From Comamonas sp. JUb58 (lineage in GTDB: Bacteria > Pseudomonadota > Gammaproteobacteria > Burkholderiales > Burkholderiaceae_C), in contig NZ_SOAL01000018.1 in the NCBI RefSeq assembly GCF_004364775.1, positions 1 to 64,000 of the forward strand: a stretch of DNA of 64,000 nucleotides, in the 5' to 3' direction. The position numbers were made by a program, and so were the translations under genes. Shown here piece by piece: positions 12,115-16,082 of the stretch (the stretch's first letter is position 1; the number at the start of each line of letters is the position of its first letter). A model generated the notes under the pieces. It ran no database searches and was not told the origin of the DNA. It saw only the letters and a program-made list of their open reading frames with translations.

Positions 12115-14097
12115 TCAGGCCATCAGAGGGCGCTGCTCATGCCTGGCCAGCATGTCGGCATAGGGCTCCAACACCCATTTTTGTTCGGCGGCATCCGGGA
12201 TCTGCGCCGCACTGGCTTGCACCACCTGGCCATGCGCGGCACACAGCTGGGCCATCGCGGCCGGGCTGATCAGGCCCTCCCGCAGCAGCAAAGCCGTCAT
12301 CGCCATCAGCAAGGCGTTGTGCTGCACCAGCAGGTCCTGCGCACGCAGCATTTGCGCTTGCAGCAAGGCTTCAATACCGGCGTTGGTGGGTGCCACTTCG
12401 GTATTGGTGTTGTCGCCAGGCTCCTGGGCCACATCGGTGCGTGACAGGCGCGCACCAAAACCCAGGTGGCGCAGGTGGCGCGCCGCATCCGCCGTGGCCT
12501 GCAGGATGTCCTGCTCGGCCCCGGTGGTACAGGCTTCCTGGCCAAACACATGGCGCTCGGCCGCGCGGCCGGCCAGGCCCACGCAGACCATGTCCAGCAT
12601 ATTGCGCCGCGAGGTGACCTGCAGCTCGGTAAAGCTGTTGTAGCCGCCTTCGAAGGTCGCAATATTGATCTTCAGCTCCTGCGGCGTGCGGCCAAACAGC
12701 AGCGCATAGACGAGGCCATGCCCCGCCTCATGCACCGCCAGCAGCGCGCGGAAATCCGCGCTGGTGCGCTGCTTGACCTTGTTCAGATCCAGCGGCACGG
12801 CAAAGCATTGCTGCAGCACCGCAGCTGCGTCCGGCAGCGCCAGTTGTACCTGCAGTTGCGCCGCGCCAGCGGCCATCTGCACCTGCAACTGCTGGCCCGC
12901 CTGAGCGCCCTGCTCCAGCGCCCACAGCGCCGCATCCACCAGCGCACTCGACAGGATCGTGTGCACCGACGAAAACAGCGGCCGCGTGCCCTGGGTGGGG
13001 AAGACGGCGTTCTGGTAGATCTGCGCCAGCACATCGCTGCCGATGACAAAGCGCAGCCCGCAGTTGGCCTCGATGCCCTGCACATAGTTGTGCACCGTCG
13101 TCGCAATCAGCTGCTCGTAGGCCGAGCGGCTGAACGACGGGTAGATCACATGCTGGTTGCCCAGCCGCGCGATCTGTTCGGGCTTGAAGCGTTCGGCCAG
13201 CGCACGCTTGACATCGATCAGCGACAAGCGGCTGGTAAGCCGGTGAAAAATGTCAGCGTCGGTGTCGCAGTCTTCGACGCGGCTGGCCGTGTCCGTGTAC
13301 ATCTCATCGAGGTTGCCACAGACAAAGACCAGCAGCTTGCTGTAATCGGTCTCCCAGGATTGCTGGGAGCTGCGGAACTGGATCAGCAGTTGGTGAATGT
13401 AGTCATTGCTCCACTGCATGATCTCGAGCAAGGGCGCATCAAGCTTGAGGCTGCGCTTGAGTGCCTGCGCGTCCCAGGCATCGATCTTGTAGCGCATTTT
13501 CTGCTTTTTGTGCCGCTCCTGCGCATCGTCCTCTTCGGCCCGTTCGGCGTCGTAGAGCGCATCCGCCAGCTTGCGCTCGATGCTGTGCAGCTCCGACAAG
13601 GCAGGCGGCAATTTGCCATCCGACAACAAGGCCCAGACATCCTGGTAGCGCTCGACCTTGCTGTCATCGCCACGGCTGCTCACCGTGCGGTAACGCTGGA
13701 ACTCATCGAGCACCAGGATGCCCGGCGCACCCTCCACCAAACCAGCACTCTCGAGCGTGCCAGAGATGGTCGATGCGCCATAGCTGTCACCGTTCTGGCT
13801 GAAGCCGTCCATCTGGACTTCGACAAAGCGATCATAGAAACCCAGCAGCTGCGCCAGGCGGCGCGTCAGCTGGGTCTTGCCCGTGCCTGTCAATCCCCAC
13901 AGGCACACAATCACAGGGCGGGTAATGAGCTGGGGCATCACATACCAGGCGCGCACGGCGCCCGTCACACGGTCAATCACGTCATCAATACCGATCAATT
14001 CGGTTTTCAGCTGGGCCGCAATGGCCTGCAGGTTTTGCTGACGCTCATGCATCTGTACGCGAAGCAATAGCTCCGGGGAGGTTTTCATTTCTTTCAT
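12115..14097 (-). CDS. Soluble AAA+ ATPase fused to an M41 (FtsH-type) zinc peptidase
   Basis: Protein of 660 residues with an unusual architecture. Residues about 30-390 are an AAA+ module: Walker A GLTGTGKT (68-75), Walker B ILVLDE (127-132), sensor-1 region FVCGN (258-262), and a charged, probably helical insert at about 165-245. The ATPase resembles Clp-type more than FtsH-type modules. Residues about 445-630 are an M41 peptidase: HEAGH (456-460), GLAGRAAE and TTGAEQD, whose Asp530 fits the third zinc ligand. No membrane helix is visible, unlike FtsH. It is probably a cytosolic ATP-dependent protease. It lies 30 bp after a small basic-protein gene, likely one operon. Substrates are unknown. 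Confidence 0.85.
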   Translation of the reverse strand: MKEMKTSPELLLRVQMHERQQNLQAIAAQLKTELIGIDDVIDRVTGAVRAWYVMPQLITRPVIVCLWGLTGTGKTQLTRRLAQLLGFYDRFVEVQMDGFSQNGDSYGASTISGTLESAGLVEGAPGILVLDEFQRYRTVSSRGDDSKVERYQDVWALLSDGKLPPALSELHSIERKLADALYDAERAEEDDAQERHKKQKMRYKIDAWDAQALKRSLKLDAPLLEIMQWSNDYIHQLLIQFRSSQQSWETDYSKLLVFVCGNLDEMYTDTASRVEDCDTDADIFHRLTSRLSLIDVKRALAERFKPEQIARLGNQHVIYPSFSRSAYEQLIATTVHNYVQGIEANCGLRFVIGSDVLAQIYQNAVFPTQGTRPLFSSVHTILSSALVDAALWALEQGAQAGQQLQVQMAAGAAQLQVQLALPDAAAVLQQCFAVPLDLNKVKQRTSADFRALLAVHEAGHGLVYALLFGRTPQELKINIATFEGGYNSFTELQVTSRRNMLDMVCVGLAGRAAERHVFGQEACTTGAEQDILQATADAARHLRHLGFGARLSRTDVAQEPGDNTNTEVAPTNAGIEALLQAQMLRAQDLLVQHNALLMAMTALLLREGLISPAAMAQLCAAHGQVVQASAAQIPDAAEQKWVLEPYADMLARHEQRPLMA

Positions 14098-14127: not shown

Positions 14128-14373
14128 TCAATCCCCGGGGTCGGCGCGGCGCGTCATCTGTTGCAAGGCCATCCGGTCGGCACGGCGCTGGGCGCCTTGG
14201 CTGCGGATGTGCTTGCCCGCAGCGCCAGACAGACGCCGCTGGGCCATGGCTTTGGCAACAGGGTTGAAAGGAGTGGCATCGGCCACGATCAGCAACGCGA
14301 TAGGTTGCTTCATGCGACGCAAGGCCTTGACCCGGCCCTCTTCAAAGGCGCGGGAAACAGTTTTTGCACTCAT
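14128..14373 (-). CDS. Small basic protein upstream of the AAA+/M41 protease
   Basis: Predicted protein of 81 residues, rich in Arg and Lys (RVKALRRMKQ, MAQRRL, GAQRRADRMALQQ) with one short hydrophobic patch, IALLIVAD. I recognise no family. A GAGGA ribosome site 10 bp before the ATG and only 30 bp to the protease start support a real, co-transcribed gene. It might be an adaptor, substrate or nucleic-acid-binding partner of the protease; this is speculation from position and charge. The leader in front contains two strong inverted repeats. Confidence 0.65.
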   Translation of the reverse strand: MSAKTVSRAFEEGRVKALRRMKQPIALLIVADATPFNPVAKAMAQRRLSGAAGKHIRSQGAQRRADRMALQQMTRRADPGD

Positions 14374-14434: not shown

Positions 14435-14470
14435 AAAACAAAAAGCCCCGGCGAAGTAGCCAGGGCTTTT
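14435..14470 (-). terminator. Terminator-like hairpin in the leader of the small gene/protease operon
   Basis: AAAAGCCC (14441-14448) pairs with GGGCTTTT (14463-14470). On the minus strand the stem is followed by TTTTTGTTTTGGGG, the form of an intrinsic terminator. It lies 68 bp before the start codon of the small gene with no minus-strand gene in between. It could be a conditional (attenuation) site or the end of a transcript from further upstream. Confidence 0.55.
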
Positions 14471-14511
14471 GTCGATCCCGACTGCAGTGTGCAGGCGGCG
14501 ATCTGGGCCAA

Positions 14512-14539
14512 GGCTAAACCATATGAACATGGTTTAGCC
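14512..14539. promoter_or_regulatory. 28-bp inverted repeat upstream of the protease operon
   Basis: GGCTAAACCAT (14512-14522) and ATGGTTTAGCC (14529-14539) are perfectly complementary around ATGAAC. There is no T run on either side, so an operator or an RNA stem is more likely than a terminator. It lies 139 bp before the small gene's start codon. Confidence 0.5.
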
Positions 14540-14815
14540 GGGGCAGAAACCGTGTTCAGTGGAGAGGGTTGAACATGAAACAGGACATAGCAAAAACTCC
14601 CAATGGTGCGCTGCAGAAGGTCATTCGTTGCTGCAGCGATAAGAAGACGAAGGGTGGACTATAGCGGTAATTTGTTGATTTGGCAAGCCCCATATACAGG
14701 CTGTTGCATAAAACTCAGCGGCAACCGCTGGCTTCCGCCTCTTTTGCGCGGCTTTGTGCGCATAAAACGCAGCAACACGCCAAAGGCGGCCAAAACCACC
14801 TCTGGCGCATGCGGA
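14540..14815. other. Non-coding gap between the protease operon and the GTPase gene
   Basis: No gene is supported here. It probably contains the minus-strand promoter of the protease operon, but I see no convincing -35/-10 pair and no heat-shock type promoter. A hairpin CAGCGG/CCGCTG (14716-14730), followed on the minus strand by AGTTTTATG, may be a weak terminator for the GTPase gene. Confidence 0.4.
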
Positions 14816-15760
14816 TCAGTAGCGCTTGCGGCCGGCCTTGCGATGCTTGGCATGTTCGGCCTTCTTGGCCTGCTGCAAGGCCTCGGCCGCCTCACCGGCA
14901 GCGCGCCATTGCTCGAACTCTGCCGGGGTCTCCACGGTGATGCGGCCCAGCATCTGGGTGCGAAAGTCGGTGATCAGCAGCTCCGCCGCCTTTTGCATGT
15001 TGATGCGCCCGCCGCTCATCACCGCGCCGCGCTTCTTGCCAATCAGGGTCAACAGCTCGTCATCCGCCAGCGCTGCCATTTCGTCATCGTCGAGGCCCAG
15101 CTTGTAGCGCTCGTCCAGCTGGCGGGCGTAATGCTTTTGCAGGTATAGCAGCAGCTCCAGCGCCACCAGCTCGTCGTCATAGGCATTGCGGCCCACCGAT
15201 CCGCAGGCCGCCAGGTTGTAACCCGTCTCCGGCACGATGATCTTGGGCCAGAGCATGCCGGGGGTGTCCCAGAGGTAGAAGTCATCGGCCAGCACAATGC
15301 GCTGCTCGTCCTTGGTCACACCGGCCTCGTCGCCGGCCTTGGCCTGGCCCTTGCCGCTCATGCTGTTGATCAGGGTGGACTTGCCCACATTGGGCACGCC
15401 GCAGATCAGCACGCGCATGGGCTTGGCCAGGCCGCCGCGCCCAGGGGCCAGTTGGCGGCAGGCCTCCACCAGGCGCTTGGCCGGTGCCGGCTCGCTGGCA
15501 TCCAGCGGCAAGGCCTTGGTTTCGTGCTGGGCCTCGTACCAGGCCACCCATTGCGCGGTGCGGCTGGCATCGGCCATGTCCTGCTTGTTGATGATCTTGA
15601 GCGTGGGCTTGTGGCCGGTCAGCTCGGTCAGTGCCGGGTTGGCGCTTGATCCTGGCATGCGCGCATCCAGCACCTCGATGACCACATCGATGTCTTTGAT
15701 GCGCTCGGCAATCAGCTTGCGCGTCAGGTGCATATGCCCGGGGAACCATTGGATACTCAT
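14816..15760 (-). CDS. ylqF: YlqF/RbgA-like circularly permuted GTPase, ribosome assembly
   Basis: GTPase of 314 residues with permuted motif order: G4 NKQD (58-61) comes before G1 GVPNVGKS (121-128) and G3 DTPG (165-168). The N-terminus IQWFPGHMHLTRK is a signature of the YlqF/RbgA family, which helps late assembly of the large ribosomal subunit. A basic tail (KKAEHAKHRKAGRKRY) may bind rRNA. The ATG at 15760 directly before the WFPGHM motif is preferred over upstream codons. The gene is divergent from the small membrane-protein gene at 15831. Confidence 0.88.
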   Translation of the reverse strand: MSIQWFPGHMHLTRKLIAERIKDIDVVIEVLDARMPGSSANPALTELTGHKPTLKIINKQDMADASRTAQWVAWYEAQHETKALPLDASEPAPAKRLVEACRQLAPGRGGLAKPMRVLICGVPNVGKSTLINSMSGKGQAKAGDEAGVTKDEQRIVLADDFYLWDTPGMLWPKIIVPETGYNLAACGSVGRNAYDDELVALELLLYLQKHYARQLDERYKLGLDDDEMAALADDELLTLIGKKRGAVMSGGRINMQKAAELLITDFRTQMLGRITVETPAEFEQWRAAGEAAEALQQAKKAEHAKHRKAGRKRY

Positions 15761-15830
15761 ACTCTTGCTTTCGGGGGGAATGGCAGGCAGGCGGTGCGCA
15801 CGCAGGCGCGCTGTGCCGGATAATGCTGCC

Positions 15831-16082
15831 ATGTCTTCTTTATCTCAACGCCAGTGGGATGCGCAGCGCAAATCCGATCAGGACCTGCTCATCAAAGGCA
15901 TCATCTTGGTCTTGATAGGGCTGGTGATCGTGGTCTCGCCCTATGTCGCTCAGGGCGATATTGTGCAGGGAGTTTTCGCCAAGGCTCCGGCAGTGGGTTG
16001 GTTTTCCCTGGTATTGGGCGCGGCTTTTGTGCTGCGCTTTGGCCTGCGCCGCAAGGCCGTGCCGCCCCGGCCCGAGCAGTGA
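15831..16082 (+). CDS. Small two-helix membrane protein
   Basis: Protein of 83 residues, not assigned to a family. Two hydrophobic segments are visible (GIILVLIGLVIVVSPYVA and VGWFSLVLGAAFVLRFGL), with a charged N-terminus and a basic Pro-rich tail. Its stop codon overlaps the GTG start of the next gene (GTGA), so the two are translationally linked. It begins 70 bp from the divergent GTPase gene, so its promoter must lie in that gap. Confidence 0.6.
   Translation: MSSLSQRQWDAQRKSDQDLLIKGIILVLIGLVIVVSPYVAQGDIVQGVFAKAPAVGWFSLVLGAAFVLRFGLRRKAVPPRPEQ

Follow-up and report, generated by a model that had tools for sequence, protein, structure and literature searches.

A putative soluble protease family that joins a Clp-D2-type AAA+ module to an M41 peptidase in bacteria and viral contigs, with a candidate leader attenuator in Burkholderiaceae

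Background

Is a 660-aa protein of Comamonas sp. JUb58, in which an AAA+ ATPase is joined to an M41 peptidase, another form of FtsH, or does it belong to a separate family of soluble proteases with a motor of a different type? The gene occupies positions 12115..14097 of the window (the whole stretch of DNA analysed, namely the first 64,000 nt of contig NZ_SOAL01000018.1) and lies on the reverse strand, as do all the window features discussed below; its open reading frame is matched by Pfam and NCBIfam models, by homologs and by PDB entries. An earlier note, made without database searches, had described a Clp-like AAA+ module with intact Walker motifs and a charged helical insert of about 80 residues, joined to an M41 peptidase with the HEAGH motif and D530, had seen no membrane helix, and had proposed a little-described soluble family. 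The link to phages, the small upstream gene and the leader RNA reported here are new relative to that note.

Domain architecture and type of the motor

In Pfam, residues 448-615 (12253..12756) match M41 with 55.8 bits (cut-off 29.9) and residues 64-150 match AAA (PF00004) with 28.9 bits (cut-off 21.2); the window protein passes these two models and does not reach the cut-offs of PF07724 and PF10431. Among distant relatives, P0187 scores above the Pfam cut-offs for AAA_2, ClpB_D2-small and M41, and L008 for ClpB_D2-small and M41. In NCBIfam, the FtsH model TIGR01241 covers the peptidase part only, with 49.9 bits against a cut-off of 600, and the N-terminal part is matched by ClpB and ClpA models, at no more than 33.1 bits against the equivalog cut-offs of ClpA, ClpB and ClpV, which are at least 884.95. 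The PDB matches are to FtsH for residues 443-600 and to ClpE, Hsp104, ClpC and ClpB for residues 18-138. None of the listed PHROG families covers both protease domains, the AAA part matching phrog_4871 and the M41 part phrog_30773.

Profiles were built from 55 of the 321 family sequences, from 12 and 18 of the 23 FtsH loci and, for the Clp proteins, from 7 loci taken as ClpB and 9 of the 10 taken as ClpA by size and score. The family AAA profile aligns to ClpB D2 with P 98.3 over 280 columns and to ClpA D2 with P 97.1 over 275 columns, with 134 columns aligned to HslU and 68 to ClpX; the family M41 profile aligns to FtsH M41 with P 99.7 over 176 columns, and two crossed controls gave P < 1. 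Compared separately, a check that the earlier note had suggested, the two domains thus go to different relatives, the AAA part to the Clp D2 type and the peptidase to the M41 domain of FtsH. Conservation and the ClpB D2 alignment delimit the module at residues about 18-400 (12898..14046) and place within it Walker A (68-75), Walker B (131-132), sensor-1 N262, the arginine finger R311 and sensor-2 R372, with R311 at the arginine finger position of ClpB D2 and a GTRP motif at sensor 2. With D2 large and small domains, arginine finger and sensor 2, the motor is classed by these alignments as the Clp/Hsp100 D2 type.

Conservation was assessed in an alignment of 321 sequences, comprising 36 bacterial loci (the window included), 239 database proteins and 46 viral sequences. 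It was obtained from 336 by dropping the partial sequence P0154, a frameshifted piece from G417 and 13 of the 59 viral loci, which were either identical to others or not within 520-1000 aa. Residues D131, Q134, N262, D264, R311, H456, E457, H460 and D530 are unchanged throughout, and four more are near-invariant: K74 (a gap in one viral row), T75 (one gap and one S), E132 (one D) and R372 (one G). The invariant set includes both histidines and the glutamate of the HEAGH zinc motif (residues 456-460, 12718..12732) as well as D530 (12508..12510), which by alignment is the third zinc ligand and falls on that of FtsH, D495 in E. coli. In the pore loop, one position carries an aromatic residue, W or Y, in 118 of the 119 members of the second database group; this residue is not strictly conserved in Burkholderiaceae or viruses. 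Both the Clp-like module with intact Walker motifs, for which NCBIfam, PDB matches, profile comparison and conservation agree, and the M41 peptidase with HEAGH and D530, as first read from the letters, are therefore confirmed.

The same holds for the charged insert, residues about 170-247 (13357..13590), which is seen as a gap in ClpB D2 and lies in that alignment between the end of the LLSDG helix and the sensor-1 strand. It is present in all 321 sequences and 35% of its residues are charged; the stretch between positions 163 and 251 measures 83-164 residues across the family and, in the window protein, exceeds that of ClpB D2 by about 78 residues. As far as the alignment places it, the insert occupies the position of the presensor-1 (pore-2) hairpin of other Clp-type ATPases; the pore-2 loop of ClpX, which corresponds to it, faces ClpP. 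Because it takes the place of this hairpin, the charged insert may line the channel that leads from the motor to the peptidase.

A small basic protein gene upstream of the protease gene

A gene for a small basic protein (81 aa, pI 11.9) at 14128..14373 ends 30 nt before the protease start. Comparison with the L006 homolog gives dN of about 0.15 of dS, so that the gene is coding, and the length varies only between 77 and 83 aa across the 18 sequences compared. A search yielded 637 database matches at E 0.01, with no functional name among the 120 listed; there is no match in Pfam, NCBIfam or PHROG, and none of 23 pattern matches to possible viral relatives was confirmed.

The small gene adjoins the protease gene in 17 of the 20 sampled Burkholderiaceae loci, a count that includes the partial match in L059, and is absent from L049, L057 and L060. 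It lies upstream of the protease gene in all four named Comamonas loci; the spacing is mostly short, reaching about 0.8 kb in L050. Among 200 Burkholderiaceae genomes, 17 have both genes, 2 the protease gene only, 1 the small gene only and 180 neither (Fisher p 2e-21, with kinship between genomes ignored), when weak small-gene matches in G394 (on another contig), G469, G319 and G403 are counted as absent. Each gene also occurs without the other: the small gene is found without the protease gene in G418, and a distant relative of it lies away from the protease gene in G394; the protease gene has no adjacent small gene in G394, in G444, in the second copy of G412 and in all 13 loci from the order of G074. 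Neither gene, therefore, needs the other everywhere.

A toxin role for the small protein, with the protease keeping it in check, was rejected, given that the gene is kept where the protease gene is broken (G417) or missing (G418). Most likely, the small protein acts as an adaptor or a privileged substrate of the protease.

A candidate leader attenuator

The region upstream of the small gene has the elements of a putative leader RNA, and its stretch 14436-14650 has a predicted folding energy of -82.7 kcal/mol (z -6.0). These elements are a sigma-70-like promoter, TTGCCA-17-TATAGT (14658..14686, 10 of 12 matches), which, as the single site found in the region against 0.6 expected, does not stand out from chance; a short leader ORF, MSCFMFNPLH (14556..14588), the TGA of which starts 15 nt before a CCCCGGC motif; this motif (14537..14543), conserved in the leader alignment as a putative 5' segment of an antiterminator; and an intrinsic terminator (14441..14470) with a 3' arm, GCCGGGG (14446-14452), complementary to CCCCGGC.

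Outside Comamonas, a profile of the five leaders of that genus finds the same region in 12 loci (E <= 0.0034), in each case before the small gene, with weak matches in L051 and L099 and none in L058, L061 and L098. In all 22 leaders collected, a set that leaves aside L059 with its partial small-gene match, a short ORF starting with ATG (other examples are MFVPLFAPT and MSSLFISTID) ends so that the stop codon begins 15-19 nt before the CCCCGGC motif, which is exact in 20 of the 22 and differs by one base in L061 and L098. No stretch of residues common to the leader peptides points to a particular signal, and the peptides contain no repeated amino acid. A second hairpin begins at the leader stop codon and beats 95% of mononucleotide shuffles in 17 of the 22 leaders, the others being L045, L047, L050, L062 and L099.

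Eighteen of these leaders were aligned, leaving out the near-duplicate L003, L061 and L098, which have no clear terminator, and the distant L099. The CCCCGGC-GCCGGGG pairing is possible in all 18, and RNAalifold finds no compensatory change for it, because both segments are invariant. Such pairing would break the terminator, so that antiterminator and terminator are predicted to be mutually exclusive. At E 0.01 the leader model gives 28 matches in 27 of the 200 genomes. The 16 strong ones (at least 39.8 bits) all lie directly upstream of a small gene; 15 had gone into building the model, and the sixteenth precedes the distant small gene of G394. The 12 weak matches are all without a small gene. 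Of the 18 genomes in which the small gene is matched strongly, three (G291, G359 and G418) have no leader match at this threshold, and the terminator of G291 and G418 looks degenerate by eye. In Rfam, two matches far below the gathering scores were taken as chance.

Ribosome-mediated transcription attenuators combine a leader ORF, alternative hairpins and a terminator before an operon, and the leader looks like an attenuator of this ribosome-sensing kind. The upstream neighbor (14816-15832) encodes a GTPase of the 50S-ribosome-binding type (MMR_HSR1); together with the leader ORF, this gene fits a translation theme at the window locus. The stretch could instead be an independent small RNA, or the terminator of a neighboring transcript, with no bearing on the small gene and the protease gene. 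In favor of this, it has a promoter-like site and a full terminator, and in Comamonas about 70 nt separate the end of the leader from the small gene. However, the leader stays with the small gene across genera, even with the protease-free distant small gene of G394, the leader ORF and its spacing from the motif are kept in 22 of 22 cases, and the predicted antiterminator and terminator could not form together. We regard the small-RNA or terminator reading as quite possible, yet less probable than attenuation of the small gene and the protease gene.

Distribution in bacteria and viral contigs

A protein search started with the window protein gave 2148 matches among 7996 scored candidates, and one started with a distant member gave 2112, the tails of which may include plain FtsH; where the 240 relatives listed (the best 120 from each search) have names, these are AAA family ATPase, peptidase M41, hypothetical protein, FtsH or Pfam domains. 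The genome of the window lies close to Comamonas koreensis, whose copy (L003) shows 99% protein identity to the window protease. The gene is patchy in bacterial genomes: it was found in 19 of 200 Burkholderiaceae genomes, in 2 of 274 sampled genomes of the class and in 2 of 398 of the phylum, the last with few candidates scored per genome and all three counts including the window's own genome, and in 13 of 63 genomes in the order of G074, to which, among named database relatives, Thiothrix and Thiolinea come nearest. A genome of the same genus, G224, has no protease gene and only a weak leader match with no small gene there.

Individual loci show further variation, the neighbors in each case being read by eye. 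In L044 and L036, the two loci of the G074 order that were inspected, the protease gene has hisF on one side and a hisE-like gene on the other, with a tatA-like gene next. L060 (G412, contig 59, 8088-10025) is a second family copy with no small gene, in a mobile-looking region with two umuC-like ORFs, a mercury-resistance-like regulator, a recombinase-like ORF and an IS3-like transposase. In L063 (G417), the protease gene is split around residues 138-153 by a frameshift, which may be natural or an error of sequencing, and the small gene is intact.

A scan of uncultivated virus contigs identified 59 loci, with 25-52% identity, on contigs of up to 548 kb. Terminase is above its cut-off in 10 of 45 viral records and the Gp23 capsid protein in 13, with one or both in 14; neither was found in the other 31, many of which are short contigs. 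The L116 and L136 records, near the Burkholderiaceae clade, have both markers. L112 and L113 are short contigs inside this clade and may be bacterial or prophage; by eye, L112 is beside toxin-antitoxin-like ORFs and L113 beside phage-structural-looking ORFs. The contigs of L120, L137, L138, L139, L144, L151 and L163 form one phage clade and carry, near the protease gene, overlapping subsets of genes read by eye as peptidyl-tRNA hydrolase-like, tRNA-His guanylyltransferase-like and a helicase with an intein. Among 50,697 phage records, none of three queries found a full-length family member: one gave no match, one gave two over 38% of the query, annotated as ftsH, and one gave sixteen over at most 28%, in the M41 part.

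The Burkholderiaceae sequences nest among viral ones both in the full-length tree of 30 bacterial or database and 46 viral sequences (76 in all) and in the M41 tree (65 sequences); both trees are drawn midpoint-rooted with low deep supports, and in the M41 tree the FtsH group is attached next to divergent viral sequences. A topology that puts all viral sequences on one side was rejected (AU p = 0.0005, with L112 and L113 counted as bacterial and 5000 replicates, fewer than the program advises). Bacterial and viral copies are not two separate clades. The family appears to be common to T4-like jumbo phages and bacteria and to have been exchanged between them. That the fusion of Clp motor and M41 peptidase was an invention of T4-like jumbo phages, captured by bacteria at least twice, is a tentative and rather doubtful proposal.

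The viral connection also invites the view that the protease is a weapon, with which phages would degrade host proteins or counter defense, the bacterial copies being captured accessory genes directed against phages. Much of the diversity of the family is seen in viral contigs, its distribution is patchy both in Burkholderiaceae and in the order of G074, and the surroundings of L060, L112 and L113 would suit such a role. Against this stand the hisF and hisE-like neighbors in the two inspected loci of the G074 order, the lack of any match to the family in 72,556 plasmid records, and the comparison with the PADLOC defense models, which gave only three partial matches, all to Clp-like regions (the best is DolB, 25.5 bits, residues 19-137). 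We consider a role as a weapon unlikely.

Relationship to FtsH

FtsH has an N-terminal membrane domain, as described in the accessible text of PMC9020784, and no such anchor was detected by hydropathy in the window protein or in the 321 family members. The best 19-residue hydropathy mean is 1.41 in the window protein and at most 1.97 across the family; it is at least 2.0 in 22 of 24 comparison M41 proteins. The two that stay below are L181, whose frame has just 378 aa, and L195, which is not a classical FtsH. A twenty-fifth protein, L185, was left out of this set, the trees and the profiles because of a wrong reading frame. By the measure of hydropathy, then, the first impression of a protein with no membrane helix is upheld. 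The M41 tree, a test that had likewise been suggested, comprises 65 sequences, 41 from the family and 24 other M41 sequences; 23 FtsH and L195 form one group (support 99) apart from all 41 family sequences. This group attaches beside a very divergent viral sequence, L168, and deep supports inside the family are low.

The protein could still be an FtsH paralog that lost its membrane anchor and in which the AAA domain merely drifted, given that the M41 domain is FtsH-like and that one relative is named FtsH 3 in one source. However, the family AAA profile aligns to FtsH AAA over 67 columns only (P 93), against the near full-length alignment of 280 columns with ClpB D2 that takes in the small domain, the arginine finger and sensor 2, and the M41 domains are apart in the tree. 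An AAA part within FtsH, together with a membrane anchor, would have spoken against a separate family; neither was found by profile comparison and hydropathy, and descent from FtsH in this manner is highly improbable. Equally improbable is a remodeling ATPase that no longer uses its M41 part as a protease, a loss known for plant FtsHi proteins in the accessible text of PMC8197885, as HEXXH and the third ligand are kept in 321 of 321 sequences.

An ordinary FtsH is also encoded in the genome of the window, and an M41 match of FtsH strength (at least 169 bits) is present in all 24 genomes examined, 15 of which carry the family; hence the protease is no FtsH replacement. The statement of the earlier note that known M41 proteases are membrane-bound FtsH needs correction in view of L195, from G001, which combines a classical AAA domain with no strong hydrophobic stretch. 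L195 and L260 (G001:C118) represent a non-classical M41 protein with an open frame of 714 aa and an N-terminal region that has no Pfam match; L195 has a full classical AAA domain (145.8 bits), an M41 domain (117.6 bits) and a hydropathy maximum of 1.51, and falls with FtsH in the M41 tree. Outside classical FtsH, M41 also occurs beyond the Clp/M41 family. With profiles, M41 tree and hydropathy in agreement, the proposal of a little-described soluble AAA+/M41 family is sustained: neither a description of this architecture nor a named, characterized family was found in the open-licence literature, subscription journals being mostly beyond the search.

Proposed function

Taken together, these observations are probably best explained by a soluble, self-contained ATP-dependent zinc protease which, in Burkholderiaceae, is under leader attenuation together with the small basic protein. 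Judging from sequence comparison, six subunits would form a cytosolic ring in which the Clp-D2-type module draws the substrate protein into an axial channel, the family-specific insert would line the passage from the motor to the peptidase ring, and the M41 ring would cut the chain, with zinc bound by H456, H460 and D530 and with E457 as the base. The Burkholderiaceae unit would run from the promoter through the short leader ORF and the attenuator to the gene of the small basic protein (pI about 12), usually with the protease gene second. Ribosomes stalled on the leader ORF or at its stop codon may allow CCCCGGC to pair with GCCGGGG of the terminator; the broken terminator would permit read-through and turn on the small protein and the protease. 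In Burkholderiaceae, the protease would accordingly be induced by translation trouble.

E. coli possesses five AAA+ proteases, according to the accessible text of PMC9020784. The present family would add a soluble AAA+ protease with a combination of motor and peptidase of which no description was found. It suggests that an M41 ring may work with a Clp-type motor and may offer a natural soluble M41 enzyme for study; it also links jumbo phages to proteolysis and provides a regulatory leader and a partner gene that can be tested.

Comparison with known systems

The predicted leader resembles ribosome-mediated attenuators in its leader ORF, alternative hairpins and terminator, and differs from them in that the leader peptide has no repeated amino acid and the RNA matches no Rfam family above chance level. 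An M41-type protease in a jumbo phage has a parallel in gp107 of phage MIJ3, which is FtsH-like and, unlike the present family, is reported in the accessible text of PMC6892783 as closer to bacterial FtsH. Like FtsH, the family combines in a single chain an AAA+ motor and an M41 peptidase that has HEXXH and Asp as the third ligand; FtsH, however, has a classical AAA and a membrane domain, whereas the family has a D2-small domain within its Clp-D2-type module, an insert (about 78 residues in the window protein) and, by hydropathy, no membrane helix. The D2 modules of ClpA and ClpB (PF07724 and PF10431) are matched over 275-280 profile columns, including the arginine finger and the GxRP sensor 2, but the family has a single AAA module with neither N-domain nor D1, and the presensor-1 hairpin is replaced by the insert. 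In place of a separate ClpP, the Clp/M41 family has a fused metalloprotease. Lon, finally, is likewise a single-chain AAA+ protease, which differs in that its peptidase is of the serine-lysine type, whereas that of the Clp/M41 family is M41.
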